Shown here: piece after piece, positions 58,011 through 64,000 of the stretch
Layout of the letters: every line of letters starts with the position of its first letter
Numbering within the stretch: position 1 is the stretch's first letter
Assembly (NCBI RefSeq): GCF_002753895.1
Contig: NZ_NJER01000003.1
Coordinates: 124,001-188,000 of the forward strand
Source: Halobacteriovorax sp. JY17
GTDB lineage: Bacteria; Bdellovibrionota; Bacteriovoracia; Bacteriovoracales; Bacteriovoracaceae
DNA: 64,000 bases
Direction: 5' to 3'
The notes under the pieces: model-generated
Databases searched by the model: none
The model's input: only the letters and a program-made list of their open reading frames with translations
What the model was told of the DNA's origin: nothing
Translations under genes and position numbers: made by a program

Positions 58011-59060
58011 CTACTTCTTACAAAAGTCTGTCTCTGTAATTGTATTGATATTGTAGACCTGAATCGTTCTACAGTCTTTGAAACTTCTATAAACATTTGA
58101 AGGCGAGCACTCAGGATCTTTATCGTTCTCTTTACTCCAATCACTATTCTTCTTGCACTCTATGTAGCTGTTTTGATCTACACATGCCCAGTGCTTACCA
58201 CTACAGTTATAGACAAGTCCCCTTCCTGTTTCTTGATAATTAGGAGGTTCTTGGTACTCTAATTTTTCTTTAACGACTTTTTCAATCATTGTAGGAGCCT
58301 CTGGGTTATTTAAACTATCAATGGCCTCTGACATTTCATTCGCACCCTTCATACTTCCTTGATTTTCTTGTCCAAGATTATCTTCGCCTAGGCTAGAAGG
58401 AGTGCTCTCAACTTGTGAATTATCCTCAAAGCCTTCTTTTCCTAAAGAGTCTACTGTGTCTGGTCCTTCTTCAGGGGAATCATCTTTTAACTTAAGTTCA
58501 TTTTCTACAACTTGAACATTTGTCTCATTAGATTCTACTTCTTTCTTCTTTTCCTCAACTTTAGCTTCAACTACTTCTGCTGGCACTGGCGCTGGATCTA
58601 CCGGTTTATTTTCCACTTTCTTAGCGACTTCAGCAGGATTTTCTTTGGCGGTCTTAACAACTTTCTTCTTTCTCTTTGGACGATTCTTTCTAACAACAGG
58701 TTTAACTTCAGGAAGAACATTTTCGTCCTCTCCTCCATCGTCCATTAATATACTTGCTCCTAAGATAAGAACAAGACCAACTAATCCAAGTCGCATTACT
58801 TTCTGCTTCTTAGCCTTTGCTGCGTCTTCATCATCCTCAGATTCGTCATCCTCTTCATCATCTTCTTCAAACTCTTCTTCATCATCTTCAGATTCTGAGT
58901 CAGATAATTTATCTTTGACGTCTATTTCCTCTGTCTTCTCATCAAACTCACCTTCCTCGTCTTCATACTCTTCATCATCGTCATCAGACTTTGATCCGGG
59001 AAGTTTTGATTTAACAGAACTAGCAAAATCATTAATTTTATCTTTCAGGTCGTCGAACAT
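58011..59060 (-). CDS. single-pass membrane protein with very acidic N terminus and Cys-containing periplasmic end
   Basis: The product is 349 aa from the ATG at 59060, which has GGA 8 nt upstream; a TTG at 59084 is rejected. Residues about 22-85 are dominated by Asp/Glu runs. A basic patch (KAKKQK) leads to one membrane helix (VMRLGLVGLVLILGASILM). Next come a basic KNRPKRKKKVVK segment, a Pro/Glu/Val-rich linker and a C-terminal domain with six cysteines (YNCSGKHWACVDQNSYIEC and later). The plan is cytoplasmic acidic tail, anchor, periplasmic spacer and disulphide domain. The family is not recognised. A strong terminator follows. Confidence 0.75.
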   Translation of the reverse strand: MFDDLKDKINDFASSVKSKLPGSKSDDDDEEYEDEEGEFDEKTEEIDVKDKLSDSESEDDEEEFEEDDEEDDESEDDEDAAKAKKQKVMRLGLVGLVLILGASILMDDGGEDENVLPEVKPVVRKNRPKRKKKVVKTAKENPAEVAKKVENKPVDPAPVPAEVVEAKVEEKKKEVESNETNVQVVENELKLKDDSPEEGPDTVDSLGKEGFEDNSQVESTPSSLGEDNLGQENQGSMKGANEMSEAIDSLNNPEAPTMIEKVVKEKLEYQEPPNYQETGRGLVYNCSGKHWACVDQNSYIECKKNSDWSKENDKDPECSPSNVYRSFKDCRTIQVYNINTITETDFCKK

Positions 59061-59145
59061 TCTTCTTTCCTTTGAAGGATTCAATAACTTATAATATATG
59101 CAATCTTATAACTTATCGAAAATTAACAAAAAAGGTTGAGAAAAA

Positions 59146-59757
59146 GTGATCGATGACGGAGTAATTAAGTACGATAGGACAAACTTTACCCAATCAGGGC
59201 CTCTAGATCCTGCTTTATGGGAGGAAATAGAGTCCTGGAGAAAGAAGCTCTTTAAATTAAATCTGATTGGCGAATATCCAACTGAAAAAGTTGGTTTTGG
59301 AAATATGTCAAAAATTATAAGATGGAATGATCAGGCTGAGTTTATTATTACTGGAACGCAAACAGGAAAGTATGAAAACTTAACAGGAGAACACTACACT
59401 CTTGTGAATGGCTATGACTTAGAAGCAATGAAGCTAAAGCAAGTTGGTCCACTTGAGGCTTCTAGTGAGGCCCTTACTCACGCAGCAGTTTATGAAGCTA
59501 ATAGAGATATCACTGCTGTCTTTCATATTCATAACACTACTATTTGGGAAAGAATGATTGAAGAGAACTATGATGCGACTCCTAAAGATGTCCCTTATGG
59601 AACTATTGAAATGGCAAACTGTGTAGGACAATTAATCGCAGGTAAATCATCAGGACTCATTGTAATGAAAGGCCATCAAGATGGAGTTATTGCTTATTCA
59701 AAATCTATGGACCAATGTGGTAAGTTGATTTTAGAACTCGCTGATAAATTTCTCTAA
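59146..59757 (+). CDS. class II aldolase/adducin-family protein
   Basis: The 203-aa product starts at GTG with AGG upstream. The zinc-binding HxH is in AVFHIHN, with a third His in VMKGHQDG and an upstream GNMSKI matching the NxS phosphate loop. Members cleave or epimerise sugar phosphates or methylthioribulose phosphate (family knowledge). The specific substrate is unclear, and the usual catalytic Glu was not placed with certainty. Its 3' end overlaps the convergent ATP-grasp gene by 27 bp. Confidence 0.8.
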   Translation: MIDDGVIKYDRTNFTQSGPLDPALWEEIESWRKKLFKLNLIGEYPTEKVGFGNMSKIIRWNDQAEFIITGTQTGKYENLTGEHYTLVNGYDLEAMKLKQVGPLEASSEALTHAAVYEANRDITAVFHIHNTTIWERMIEENYDATPKDVPYGTIEMANCVGQLIAGKSSGLIVMKGHQDGVIAYSKSMDQCGKLILELADKFL

Positions 59758-60717
59758 GTCTTGAAACACTTTTCTTCCATCTAAAGGCTTATCACTAAGT
59801 AGAGCAACAGAAATAAATTTATCGACAGGAGAGAGCAAGACAACCCTCTCTTCGAACTCAGACAGTACTTCTAAAAGTTCTTTAAAGTTTTTGGAAATAG
59901 TTATCTTAAGTATTCCCCAATAGACAAATTTTTCAGGAAAGATTCTATTTAAAGAATGAGCCATCAGTCCCATTGTTTTTCTATAATTAACCTCAACAAA
60001 GGGATGAAAACCATCTTTATAAGTAAAAGTATCAATTTGAATTGAATCTTTAGCCCCAAGTGAAGCGAGCTTATCCCTAATAACTTCTAGTATTTTAAAG
60101 TTCTCACCTCCTATACTGTCGTCAATACTTTTAAGTTCACCGCCTTTAAATTGGCCGTACTGATCAATGTAATTCTCTATTATAAAGAAGCTTTTATCAT
60201 TGAGATTAAAAGTTACACCGTAGTCTTTATACTTTTCTACAAATTGAGAAAAAACAGATGTCGTGGATATCTTCTCTATATCCTCAAGATTTCTAATGAC
60301 GCTAACTCCTCTTCCAGAAAATCCCCATTCAGCCCGAGCAATCATGGGATAAGTTAGCTTCTTAATTGCTTCATTTTTTGTGATAACAGAGGGAATAGGT
60401 ATCCATCCCTCACGAATTCCAAGCTCAGTCATAGAGATTTTAGAGTTGAAAAACTTTTCTTTTTCTAAATCGACACACTTTCCCCACCATGGAATCGAGG
60501 CTCCTTTATAAGACACTTTATTAGAAAGGAGATTTAATGAAAGTAGATGTTCAAGATATTCTTCGCTAAATTTATAAGTGGTCTTTAAAATAGATTTTTC
60601 ATTGGTATTGATAAAGAAGAAAATATGATCAAACCAGCTAGCGCCTTTAATCTTTTTAGAAGAACCTGAGAGAAAATTCTCATAATCCAAATTTAGGTGA
60701 TATTTTACTTCTTCCAT
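59731..60717 (-). CDS. ATP-grasp domain ligase-like protein
   Basis: The 328-aa product carries ATP-grasp features: YPMIARAEWGFSGRGVSVIR (123-142) as lysine-less but glycine-rich nucleotide loop, FFIIENYID (about 177-185), and metal-binding acidic residues Asp229 in IQIDTF plus Glu242/Asn244 in FVEVNYRKTMG. The usual ATP-binding Lys is replaced by Arg in MIARAE, as occurs in some members. The family couples ATP hydrolysis to forming amide, peptide or thioester bonds. The substrate is unknown. Its start lies 13 bp inside the end of the DUF455 gene, so the two are coupled. It does not resemble GshB, carbamoyl-phosphate synthase or D-Ala ligase in its outer motifs. Confidence 0.8.
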   Translation of the reverse strand: MEEVKYHLNLDYENFLSGSSKKIKGASWFDHIFFFINTNEKSILKTTYKFSEEYLEHLLSLNLLSNKVSYKGASIPWWGKCVDLEKEKFFNSKISMTELGIREGWIPIPSVITKNEAIKKLTYPMIARAEWGFSGRGVSVIRNLEDIEKISTTSVFSQFVEKYKDYGVTFNLNDKSFFIIENYIDQYGQFKGGELKSIDDSIGGENFKILEVIRDKLASLGAKDSIQIDTFTYKDGFHPFVEVNYRKTMGLMAHSLNRIFPEKFVYWGILKITISKNFKELLEVLSEFEERVVLLSPVDKFISVALLSDKPLDGRKVFQDLEKFISEF

Positions 60718-61526
60718 TCTCTTCTATTCGTTACAACAAAATCATCAGAGTAGTTTTTAACTCCGTCGATAAATTCTTGATCAAGACCAGCGCGTACTCT
60801 AGCGTCGTGATCAAACATCATGGCCTTTGCTCTCGCTGGAGTAATATTCTTTGGCAGAAGCTCATTATAGTATTCCCAAAGGCTCTTATCGCTTCTCCAC
60901 TTATTCAACCAATTCCTTCCATAAGCAACATGGCTAATTTCATCTTCATAGACAATATTCATAATTTTTTCGGACTCATGGTCTTCAAAGTCTTTAAAAA
61001 TATTTTCATAGAATTTTGCAAAATCTAAGTTAGCAGCTTCAAACGTTAGGGATACAAGTGCGAAGAATCCATCTAATTGATCAACTTCACTAAATTTCTT
61101 CCAGAAGAAATCATTAAGAGCAACTCCTCCAAATTCAAGACCTAGAGCTTCCATACGTTTCTTATAAAGAAGAAAATGCTTTTGCTCATCAGCGATAGTT
61201 GCAATTAATCCTCTCTTCGCCTTCAAGTCCATTTCATTACGAGTAGGTAGGCAAAGAATTGCAGCGGCCATCATTTCGATGGCCAAAAGTTCATGATTTG
61301 CAAAGAAGTGGAGAGCTGTTGCTCTTCTCTCTGGAACATGAAGAGATCTTGGCTTTGGAAATTTAATCTGAACATCAGAAAAAGCAATAAGCTTATCTCT
61401 TCCTGGATATAGTGGTTTCTCCACAATATTAAAAGAATTGTAGCTCGTAATCACTTTGGGATTTAGGAGCTTATCTTCTAAATGAGGAGAAAAGAGAAGA
61501 GTTCTAGCATACTCATCAATATTCAT
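60705..61526 (-). CDS. DUF455 ferritin-like protein with complete diiron ligand set
   Basis: The 273-aa product is a four-helix ferritin-like fold. Likely ligands are Glu79 or Glu84 (ANHELLAIE), Glu114/His117 (DEQKH), Glu163 (TFEAAN) and Glu196/His199 (EDEISHVAYG), that is E, ExxH, E, ExxH, the pattern of carboxylate-bridged diiron oxygenases and MiaE-like hydroxylases (family knowledge). RRATALHFFANHELLAIEMM is typical of DUF455. The reaction is unknown. It lies 3 nt after the stop of the SUV3-like helicase and overlaps the ATP-grasp gene by 13 bp. Confidence 0.85.
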   Translation of the reverse strand: MNIDEYARTLLFSPHLEDKLLNPKVITSYNSFNIVEKPLYPGRDKLIAFSDVQIKFPKPRSLHVPERRATALHFFANHELLAIEMMAAAILCLPTRNEMDLKAKRGLIATIADEQKHFLLYKKRMEALGLEFGGVALNDFFWKKFSEVDQLDGFFALVSLTFEAANLDFAKFYENIFKDFEDHESEKIMNIVYEDEISHVAYGRNWLNKWRSDKSLWEYYNELLPKNITPARAKAMMFDHDARVRAGLDQEFIDGVKNYSDDFVVTNRREWKK

Positions 61527-61529
61527 TGC

Positions 61530-64000
61530 TTATTTCTTCTTCCCGCTAAACTTTCTCTTCTTTTTGAAAGTCGCTTTTCCGCCACTATTTTTTCCAGCAG
61601 GAGCTCCTCTTTTAAAGGCCGCTGCTTTAGAGTTTCTACCACCTGGAGAGCGAGGTCCTCTACGACTAAATTTTCTCTGTTGAAAGCAATCTTCACAGAT
61701 AGCAAATTTATGTTTCTCAGTAAGCTTTGTTCCACAGCTTGAGCACGTAGGAACAATTTTTTCCGAGAGTAGAACATTTAGTCTATCAACTGCTCCGCCT
61801 TTGTTTTCAAGAAGCTCAGCTTCATTAAAGAGAAAATTCTTATTATCAAAATGCCTTGCAAGCCATTGATAGAGCTCTACACACTTAATAGAAGTTTCAA
61901 GATAGTCGATGTCACTTGATTTAAAATCAATCGGCTCATTGAGAATGTTTTGAGATTTTACATAGTGAGATAAAATCCACATATAATATTGAACATGCTC
62001 TAATAATCCTTGATTAACCGGAGCACAAGCAAATCCAAATATTTCAGATGTCGTTAAAATATTTTCAGTATCAGTATCTTCAACCATCTCAGCAAGTTCA
62101 ATCATTTCCTTAAGCTGAACGCAGAAGAATGGTTTCTTAAAATCCATCGTATGAAATAAGCGTAAGAACTCAGAAAGCTTAAGACCTGGAAGATTATTAT
62201 CATCTAAGGCATTATTCACTTTATTAAAAATATCTAAGTCAGGTCCAACCATGCATTGAGTAGACTGAGCTAAATTTGCAGTAAGCGCATCGTTTATTTC
62301 TTTAATACCATTTTCTACTTTTGTTAGTGTTGTTACAAAGCCAGTAGGAAAACGCTTAAATCTTCCCGCACGACCAGCAATTTGCTTGATCTCACTTTGA
62401 GAGATTATAAATTCATGACCATCAATAAACTTAGACAGTGTTGAGAAAACAATTCTTCTAATTGGAAGATTCATCCCCATCGAAATTGCATCTGTTGAAA
62501 CAATAATATCCGTCTCGCCCTCATCAAATTTACGAGCTTGCTCACGCCTTACTTCAGGACTTAATCGTCCGTAAACAATTGAGACTTTAAACCCAACTTT
62601 TTCTAGGTCTCTTTTAAAGCGAAGAGCATTTCTCCTCGAAAAAACAATAAGAGCATCATTCTTCTCAAGCTGACCAACAACGATTGGCTTAGGCTCAACA
62701 TTTAGCTCCGTCATTCTGGTGTATTCTTTAACAATTAATTCATCACCACATAAGTCAGCAACTTCTTTTACCATTTCATAAGCTGATGGGTCCCCACAAA
62801 CATGAATCTCTGGAGAATAGACATTCACTAGCGCCCTAGTCCACGCCCAGCCTCTTTGCTTATCCGTAATCATTTGAATTTCATCAATTACACAGCAATC
62901 GAAAATTTCACCAAAGCGTGCCATTTCAATTGTTGAAGAAAAATGAGTCGCACCTTCGTTTTCAATAACTTCTTCACCTGTAAGTAGAGTTGTTTTGGCA
63001 CCTTTTTCATTTAAAGTATCGTAGAGCTCTCCTGCAAGTAATCTAAGAGGAGCGAGGTAGCAACCCGTCTTTGCCTTACTTAGCGCTTCAACAGCGTGAT
63101 AAGTCTTACCTGAGTTAGTTGGACCCATATGATAAATAATTTTTCTCTTAATTTCTCTAGCATTAGAATGAATCCAGAACTCTCCAAGATAATCATTTAG
63201 GATTTTAGAGGAAACATCTTTCTTTTTTAGAACAACAATCGCTCTGACAAATTTTCTAAATTCTCTTTGAAGATATTTCTTTCCCTTCCACAGATTAGAT
63301 CCTAATTGAGAGAAGAATTTCTCATACTCATGATCTTCAATTAAATCTTCTGAGAACTCGTTATTATTTAACCAGTCACGAAGGTGGGGAATAATATTTC
63401 TCGCATGATCTTTGGCGAGATCACTTGGGTAGTCAAATTTATCACTTAGATTATTTTTGATTTGAGATTCTAACCTATTTAAAGACGATCTCTTTAACTT
63501 ATTTCTCGCCTTAAATAGAGACTTATCTAATTCTTTTTGTAAATTATTATAAAGCTCACCTATTTCTTCAATTGGTAAATTAAGAGAACTTTCAATTTTT
63601 TCAAAAGCTTTCTGAATATTTTCTTGGCAAGATTCAAAGATAAACTCTCGCAGCCTTGTTCTATAATTTGCAATACAACTTAAGCACTGGCAATCAAGAT
63701 CGGAAACTTTAAGAGACAAGCTAAAGCTTTCTAAAATTTTCGTTTGAGACTTAACATGATTACTCTTAACCTTTTGCATCCATTCAAAGAATGCTTTCTG
63801 GTGAAGAGACATGATATTTAGACTAATTCCACCATCTTGACCAAAGTAGTATCTCTCTTGCTCTGGAAACATACAATCATCTAAGAAGATTAGGTCTAGA
63901 ACATTATCTCTTTGAATAAAATCATAGAATGTTGTGTACTCTTTTCCAAAAAGTGGGATTAGTGATGGAAACTCTGAAAAGAATGTGTGGAGAGATATTT
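61530..64000 (-). CDS. SUV3-like RNA helicase with zinc ribbon and basic tail (5' end outside window)
   Basis: The frame stays open from 61530 to the right edge, so the gene is partial; an ATG at 63872 is internal-looking because 42 further in-frame codons (starting ISLHTFFSEF) follow to position 64000. The helicase core has Walker A HMGPTNSGKTYHAVEAL, then APLRLLAGELYD, DEIQMI in the Walker B position, STDAISMGMNLPI and QIAGRAGRF. This set is typical of SUV3, the degradosome-type RNA helicase of mitochondria and some bacteria. N-terminal CQCLSC and C-terminal CSSCGTKL...CEDC look like zinc sites, followed by a Lys/Arg/Gly tail that probably binds RNA. It leads the helicase-DUF455-ATP-grasp unit. 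Confidence 0.88.
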   Translation of the reverse strand, partial: ISLHTFFSEFPSLIPLFGKEYTTFYDFIQRDNVLDLIFLDDCMFPEQERYYFGQDGGISLNIMSLHQKAFFEWMQKVKSNHVKSQTKILESFSLSLKVSDLDCQCLSCIANYRTRLREFIFESCQENIQKAFEKIESSLNLPIEEIGELYNNLQKELDKSLFKARNKLKRSSLNRLESQIKNNLSDKFDYPSDLAKDHARNIIPHLRDWLNNNEFSEDLIEDHEYEKFFSQLGSNLWKGKKYLQREFRKFVRAIVVLKKKDVSSKILNDYLGEFWIHSNAREIKRKIIYHMGPTNSGKTYHAVEALSKAKTGCYLAPLRLLAGELYDTLNEKGAKTTLLTGEEVIENEGATHFSSTIEMARFGEIFDCCVIDEIQMITDKQRGWAWTRALVNVYSPEIHVCGDPSAYEMVKEVADLCGDELIVKEYTRMTELNVEPKPIVVGQLEKNDALIVFSRRNALRFKRDLEKVGFKVSIVYGRLSPEVRREQARKFDEGETDIIVSTDAISMGMNLPIRRIVFSTLSKFIDGHEFIISQSEIKQIAGRAGRFKRFPTGFVTTLTKVENGIKEINDALTANLAQSTQCMVGPDLDIFNKVNNALDDNNLPGLKLSEFLRLFHTMDFKKPFFCVQLKEMIELAEMVEDTDTENILTTSEIFGFACAPVNQGLLEHVQYYMWILSHYVKSQNILNEPIDFKSSDIDYLETSIKCVELYQWLARHFDNKNFLFNEAELLENKGGAVDRLNVLLSEKIVPTCSSCGTKLTEKHKFAICEDCFQQRKFSRRGPRSPGGRNSKAAAFKRGAPAGKNSGGKATFKKKRKFSGKKK

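Follow-up and report, generated by a model that had tools for sequence, protein, structure and literature searches.

The question raised by the Halobacteriovorax sp. JY17 DNA analysed here (64,000 nucleotides (nt) of contig NZ_NJER01000003.1, from a genome of 3.47 Mb in 5 contigs; the whole stretch is referred to as the window) is whether three closely packed genes at its end form one functional unit, and what such a unit would make. These minus-strand genes, for a SUV3-like helicase, a DUF455 protein and an ATP-grasp ligase, had been described from the letters alone as a coupled trio (hereafter the sequence-only reading), of which the latter two could oxidise and then ligate a target, possibly RNA given the helicase. 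Open reading frame (ORF) coordinates gave the spacing that had been reported, with a gap of 3 nt from SUV3 to DUF455 and an overlap of 13 nt between DUF455 and ATP-grasp, and the arrangement was seen again in dozens of genera and is therefore not due to chance. The functional unit is the pair of DUF455 and ATP-grasp, not the trio, and it is fairly probable that the two proteins are halves of a bifunctional diiron oxygenase/oxidase and carboxylate-amine (peptide-type) ligase, split once in the family to which the window belongs. The three genes are as follows.

59731-60717, minus strand: divergent ATP-grasp ligase of 328 amino acids (ORF call; residues D229, E242, N244, R246)
60705-61526, minus strand: predicted DUF455 ferritin-like diiron protein of 273 amino acids (PF04305; residues E79, E114, H117, E163, E196, H199)
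61530-64000, minus strand: in-window part of a SUV3-like DEXQ RNA helicase (PF22527), a co-directional neighbour judged to lie outside the functional unit

Conservation and fusion of the pair

The order was sampled with 129 genomes, all of one family and from 48 genera, and the counts that follow take no account of relatedness. SUV3 was identified in 120 of these genomes, DUF455 above cut-off in 104 and, by a single-sequence search, the ATP-grasp protein in 91, with DUF455 followed by a same-strand ATP-grasp gene in 87 genomes (28 genera) and the complete trio in 82 (26 genera). Genomes of the family that appeared to carry DUF455 only were found to reflect the sensitivity limit of this search, as a profile search detected an ATP-grasp gene beside DUF455 in ten more genomes (with a gap of approximately 1.2 kb in G072) and in G070, bringing the arrangement to about 98 genomes. 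The leftover unpaired cases were contig ends (such as G027 and G120) and G044. This last genome (L260, L261), of the same genus as JY17, has its DUF455 gene relocated to another contig, with ATP-grasp still beside SUV3, and its DUF455 is 53% identical to that of the window, compared with 66-87% for other members of the genus.

Among the 77 genomes at least 90% complete, both genes were present in 65, neither in 12 and a single one in none, a tally that counts DUF455-paired ATP-grasps; G029 (88% complete) falls outside this set and holds only a cluster-type ATP-grasp paralogue, described below. The pair was absent as a cassette, with its flanks intact, from G040, G041, G055 and G060, where a gene for an acidic transmembrane (TM) protein directly follows SUV3. 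In most of 63 measured loci the DUF455 stop and the ATP-grasp start overlap by 1-32 nt (median -11 nt), and the overlap at the window locus suggests translational coupling of the two genes.

Several DUF455 matches from further families of this phylum were found to lie in frames of 650-740 amino acids, which profiles showed to consist of an N-terminal DUF455 and the same ATP-grasp as the C-terminal part, the window ATP-grasp being homologous to the C-terminal half of these fused proteins. When 84,980 species genomes were scanned with these sequences, at least 542 relatives were confirmed. The best 80 of these loci, a set biased towards fusions by a query with a fused protein at its head, included 77 with a called DUF455 ORF, and an ATP-grasp domain was present in all 77. 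Record titles placed the fusions in Verrucomicrobia, SAR324, Latescibacterota, Gemmatimonadetes, Oligoflexales (Oligoflexia) and others, with a patchy spread: a phylum sample built around a Verrucomicrobia record had them in 3 of 145 genomes. No relative was found on viral contigs, plasmids yielded nothing beyond canonical DUF455 or an ATP-grasp relative standing alone, and neither DUF455 nor ATP-grasp nor the fusion was matched to a defence system by PADLOC.

All split forms were grouped in one clade of the DUF455 tree (support 99) and canonical DUF455 in another (support 99). These groupings fit one fission event in an ancestor of the window's family, although, as the tree has no fixed root, fusion elsewhere is formally possible. 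That the pairing might be restricted to close relatives, or that the two genes might mostly occur apart, had been named beforehand as grounds against it, and neither was found for this DUF455 subfamily. DUF455 and ATP-grasp are concluded to act together because they are fused elsewhere, behave as a unit in gain and loss and are encoded by overlapping genes, and the split halves are probably still co-translated.

The two proteins and their proposed reaction

The DUF455 protein was assigned to its family by Pfam (PF04305, E 3e-51, 174.7 bits against a cut-off of 34.3). The full E, ExxH, E, ExxH ligand set read earlier from the middle gene was borne out, with E79, E114/H117, E163 and E196/H199 invariant in 32 DUF455 homologues of the family and the equivalent residues also invariant in 49 of 49 aligned fusions. 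In an AlphaFold2 model (predicted local distance difference test score, pLDDT, of 93), these ligands are carried by long helices at residues 65-92, 98-127, 151-179 and 183-208, the predicted four-helix bundle and ligand arrangement being those of ferritin-like diiron proteins. The best Foldseek match was an aldehyde-deformylating oxygenase (4kvq), a weak one (E 0.05, approximately 16% identity), with ferritins and Dps among the weaker matches, and the best profile match was likewise a weak one to aldehyde-deformylating oxygenase. Membership of that family is not claimed, as the protein scored 15-16 bits against cut-offs of 222.65 (TIGR04059) and 28 (PF11266). The order-wide search also returned a weaker second set of DUF455-like matches in short frames of approximately 160-180 amino acids, often with an internal stop in the match (for example G094:C144:2552-3052 and G095:C108:6069-6515), which is probably a different ferritin-like family.

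The ATP-grasp protein was matched by Pfam only below threshold (CPSase_L_D2, 0.0055; ATP-grasp_3, 0.015) and is therefore regarded as a divergent member. The motifs noted in the sequence-only reading were upheld, as D229, E242 and N244, together with R246, were invariant in 31 ATP-grasp homologues and loop residues S134-G135 were conserved in at least 90% of them. The fold was judged on a fused homologue (L165), whose AlphaFold2 model (pLDDT 91.4, predicted template modelling score 0.89) matched ATP-grasp structures of the PDB with Foldseek down to E 1.7e-12; this predicted fold and the catalytic D and E-x-N-x-R residues are those of the ATP-grasp superfamily. The top matches were ATP-grasp peptide ligases (Streptomyces 8ynd/8ynq, 3wvq and 7r8p), with BesA (8yi6) and PylC (4ffr) lower down, mixed with PurK and biotin carboxylases, and 7r8p was the only PDB sequence match of the fused profile (E 0.009). 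We take 3wvq to be PGM1, and 7r8p to be LdmS (SAOUHSC_02373). LdmS is described in NCBIfam as an L-aspartate-L-methionine ligase, and no window protein matches the LdmS/PGM1 family model (NF047900). A Parabacteroides relative without DUF455 (L196) does match the LdmS model, at E 8e-8 and 31 bits against a cut-off of 475, which is therefore a resemblance to LdmS and not membership. Placement of the window protein in the R2K/CDC123 ATP-grasp clade was rejected, as an ExGD motif described in the paper on that clade differs from the ExN found here; the paper makes no mention of ferritin, helicase, oxygenase or iron.

Because the ATP-grasp half resembles an amide-forming peptide ligase, an oxidise-and-ligate reaction is reasonable at the family level, where fusion, joint loss and the peptide-ligase-like fold sustain this part of the original proposal, but not its placement on RNA. 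The pair probably makes one small oxidised, amide-linked molecule jointly, as fusion and joint loss argue for one product. The ATP-grasp half would activate a carboxylate as an acyl-phosphate and join it to an amine, giving a small amino-acid-derived amide, and the diiron half, with O2 and electrons from an external donor, would hydroxylate, desaturate or cleave that molecule, either before or after ligation. For the pair we infer the metal, the O2 chemistry, the substrate class and the order of steps.

Among immediate neighbours of the fusions, Pfam identified DCC1-like proteins four times and DUF2721 three times, with the rest scattered. A DCC1-like (DUF393) thiol oxidoreductase gene was seen directly upstream of the fusion in two separate groups (DCC1-like genes at L102:4902-5315, L133:3922-4338, L139:7806-8210, L156:524-928 and L233:1165-1482), and a 2Fe-2S ferredoxin gene lies beside one fusion; these products are possible electron donors, as candidates only. 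Aminopeptidase genes were also seen, as a raw observation, to adjoin fusions a few times.

Several points weigh against a bifunctional oxygenase and ligase. The fold matches of DUF455 are weak (best E 0.05), the known ligases matched by ATP-grasp are remote from it (12-15% identity), and the candidate electron donors are present in only a few loci. No neighbour was constant beside the fusions, clustering giving a maximum of 8 of the 77 loci, so that a pathway context is missing. Furthermore, canonical DUF455 (Bdellovibrio, Rhizobium) occurs without ATP-grasp, and DUF455 chemistry therefore need not be tied to ligation. The pair-type profile gives these canonical proteins scores of only about 45-85 bits, and their neighbours are YebC, pseudouridine synthase, PTPS, peroxiredoxin or M23 peptidase genes, with no ATP-grasp gene among them; at Bdellovibrio-type loci (L105, L108, L112) the DUF455 gene was observed near YebC, an S4-domain pseudouridine synthase and a PTPS/QueD-like gene.

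ATP-grasp relatives without DUF455 were found in gene clusters of another kind. In G028 and G029, which belong to the window's family, an ATP-grasp paralogue occurs with a carbamoyltransferase (Carbam_trans_C, 1e-54 and 3e-46), as a separate gene beside it in G028 (L332:5522-10501) and fused into a protein of 879 amino acids in G029 (L306:4223-7974), and both clusters also hold a glycosyltransferase gene and a pyridoxal phosphate (PLP) decarboxylase-like gene. The two paralogues group together with a support of 99. A more distant ATP-grasp gene with a pre-ATP-grasp domain in G276 (L333:1914-5563) overlaps a PLP decarboxylase gene, beside two KAS III-like genes. These clusters look like biosynthesis-type clusters and fit a small-molecule ligase.

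Two other roles were weighed at this point. The ATP-grasp half may instead attach amino acids to a target that is a protein or a ribosomal peptide, as RimK-like enzymes do, with the diiron half hydroxylating the target or the tag. This is considered unlikely: ligases of such a kind do form peptide bonds, and fusions that stand without pathway genes would be expected for a cellular protein target, but the nearest folds are small-molecule/peptide ligases, the family match is to LdmS and not to RimK, and no conserved precursor-peptide gene was noticed, small ORFs not having been searched systematically. Alternatively, the DUF455 half may be an iron-binding or peroxide-handling protein with a protective or regulatory role towards the ligase, and not a catalytic oxygenase, as its ferritin-like fold and the ferritins and Dps among its weaker matches would allow. 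Its best fold and profile matches are to oxygenases, though weak, and a 1:1 arrangement with a ligase in a single polypeptide is, from general knowledge, unusual for storage or peroxide defence, which makes this role quite improbable.

The SUV3 helicase and its surroundings

The helicase was identified as an ordinary member of the SUV3 family of DEXQ helicases (PF22527, DEXQc_Suv3, 5e-61, 205.2 bits; Helicase_C, 1e-14, 55 bits), with a C-terminal zinc-ribbon-like stretch and a basic tail. The full protein has 878 amino acids, the start of its gene lying approximately 166 nt beyond the end of the window (L066:5531-8167). SUV3 is also closely spaced to DUF455 in most loci of the family, within a long block conserved family-wide that comprises M28 peptidase, SUV3, DUF455, ATP-grasp, aldolase-like, acidic TM and HD protein genes and more. 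Two further members of this block in the window flank the pair.

59146-59757, plus strand: class II aldolase/adducin-like gene c10 (PF00596, 3e-10), a conserved flank outside the unit
58011-59084, minus strand: acidic single-TM protein c1, a conserved flank downstream of the pair

The c10 gene is convergent with the ATP-grasp gene, their 3' ends sharing 27 nt, and is present in 17 of 33 block loci; the strongly acidic c1 was observed to be kept in 29 of the 33.

SUV3 was retained in all 12 near-complete (at least 90%) genomes of the order that lack the pair, and an antisense gene separates SUV3 from DUF455 in genera g5, g11 and g46. Six of ten fusion-bearing genomes gave no strong SUV3 match, three of these having no match at all, and only one SUV3 gene, a divergent one, was found beside a fusion (L104). 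The helicase as part of the unit was rejected on the joint-loss pattern and the synteny, and the trio of the sequence-only reading was not sustained; SUV3 looks like a bystander to the pair, a neighbour with its own role. As it is kept without the pair and its adjacency is a matter of block-wide synteny, the helicase is no reason to suppose an RNA substrate. A modification of RNA or tRNA, in which the diiron protein would oxidise and the ATP-grasp protein ligate a group onto RNA unwound by SUV3, is thus very unlikely despite the tight upstream spacing of SUV3 in most genera of the family, the SUV3 gene at L104 and the DEAD-box helicase, TrpS, ProS, YebC or pseudouridine synthase genes beside some fusions, since the adjacency of SUV3 belongs to a longer block and is broken in some genera, neighbours of the RNA type adjoin few fusions and are confined to certain lineages, and no RNA-binding domain was found in either pair protein with domain searches.

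Relation to known systems

A precedent is given by gene clusters that combine a heme-oxygenase-like diiron oxidase (HDO) with an ATP-grasp ligase, BesC and BesA being one example. Another cluster of this kind is that of mangotoxin, with MboA, MboC and MboD (PMC13185094). The system proposed here is like these clusters in joining an O2-activating diiron enzyme to ATP-grasp amino-acid ligation for one amino-acid-derived product. It is unlike them in that theirs have a heme-oxygenase-like fold and are separate genes in biosynthetic clusters, whereas here the diiron protein is a ferritin-like DUF455, which in many phyla forms one protein with the ligase and has no cluster around it. LdmS (7r8p) is the closest ATP-grasp by sequence profile, and both it and PGM1 (3wvq) are among the closest folds; their identity to the present enzyme is approximately 12-15%, and neither has a diiron domain. 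Canonical DUF455 (PF04305/COG2833) belongs to the same Pfam family and differs in its separate clade (99) and in having no ATP-grasp neighbour. No study of DUF455 function came up when the text of open papers was searched, and a literature search, with most subscription journals outside its coverage, found no paper on a DUF455-ATP-grasp protein.

It may tentatively be suggested that these proteins are an undescribed bifunctional family, of which the window's family would carry a natural split version. The ferritin-like diiron oxygenase and the ATP-grasp peptide ligase would act as a single active unit, and their product would be a small molecule, oxidised and amide-linked, that is widespread and may be a housekeeping metabolite and not a specialised product. 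In several phyla the fusion links one branch of DUF455 with a ligase that forms amides and thereby gives it a concrete, testable chemistry, in a two-gene system that is open to expression and assay. The theme of a diiron oxidase with an ATP-grasp ligase would in this way take in another diiron fold and a version with both domains on one chain.

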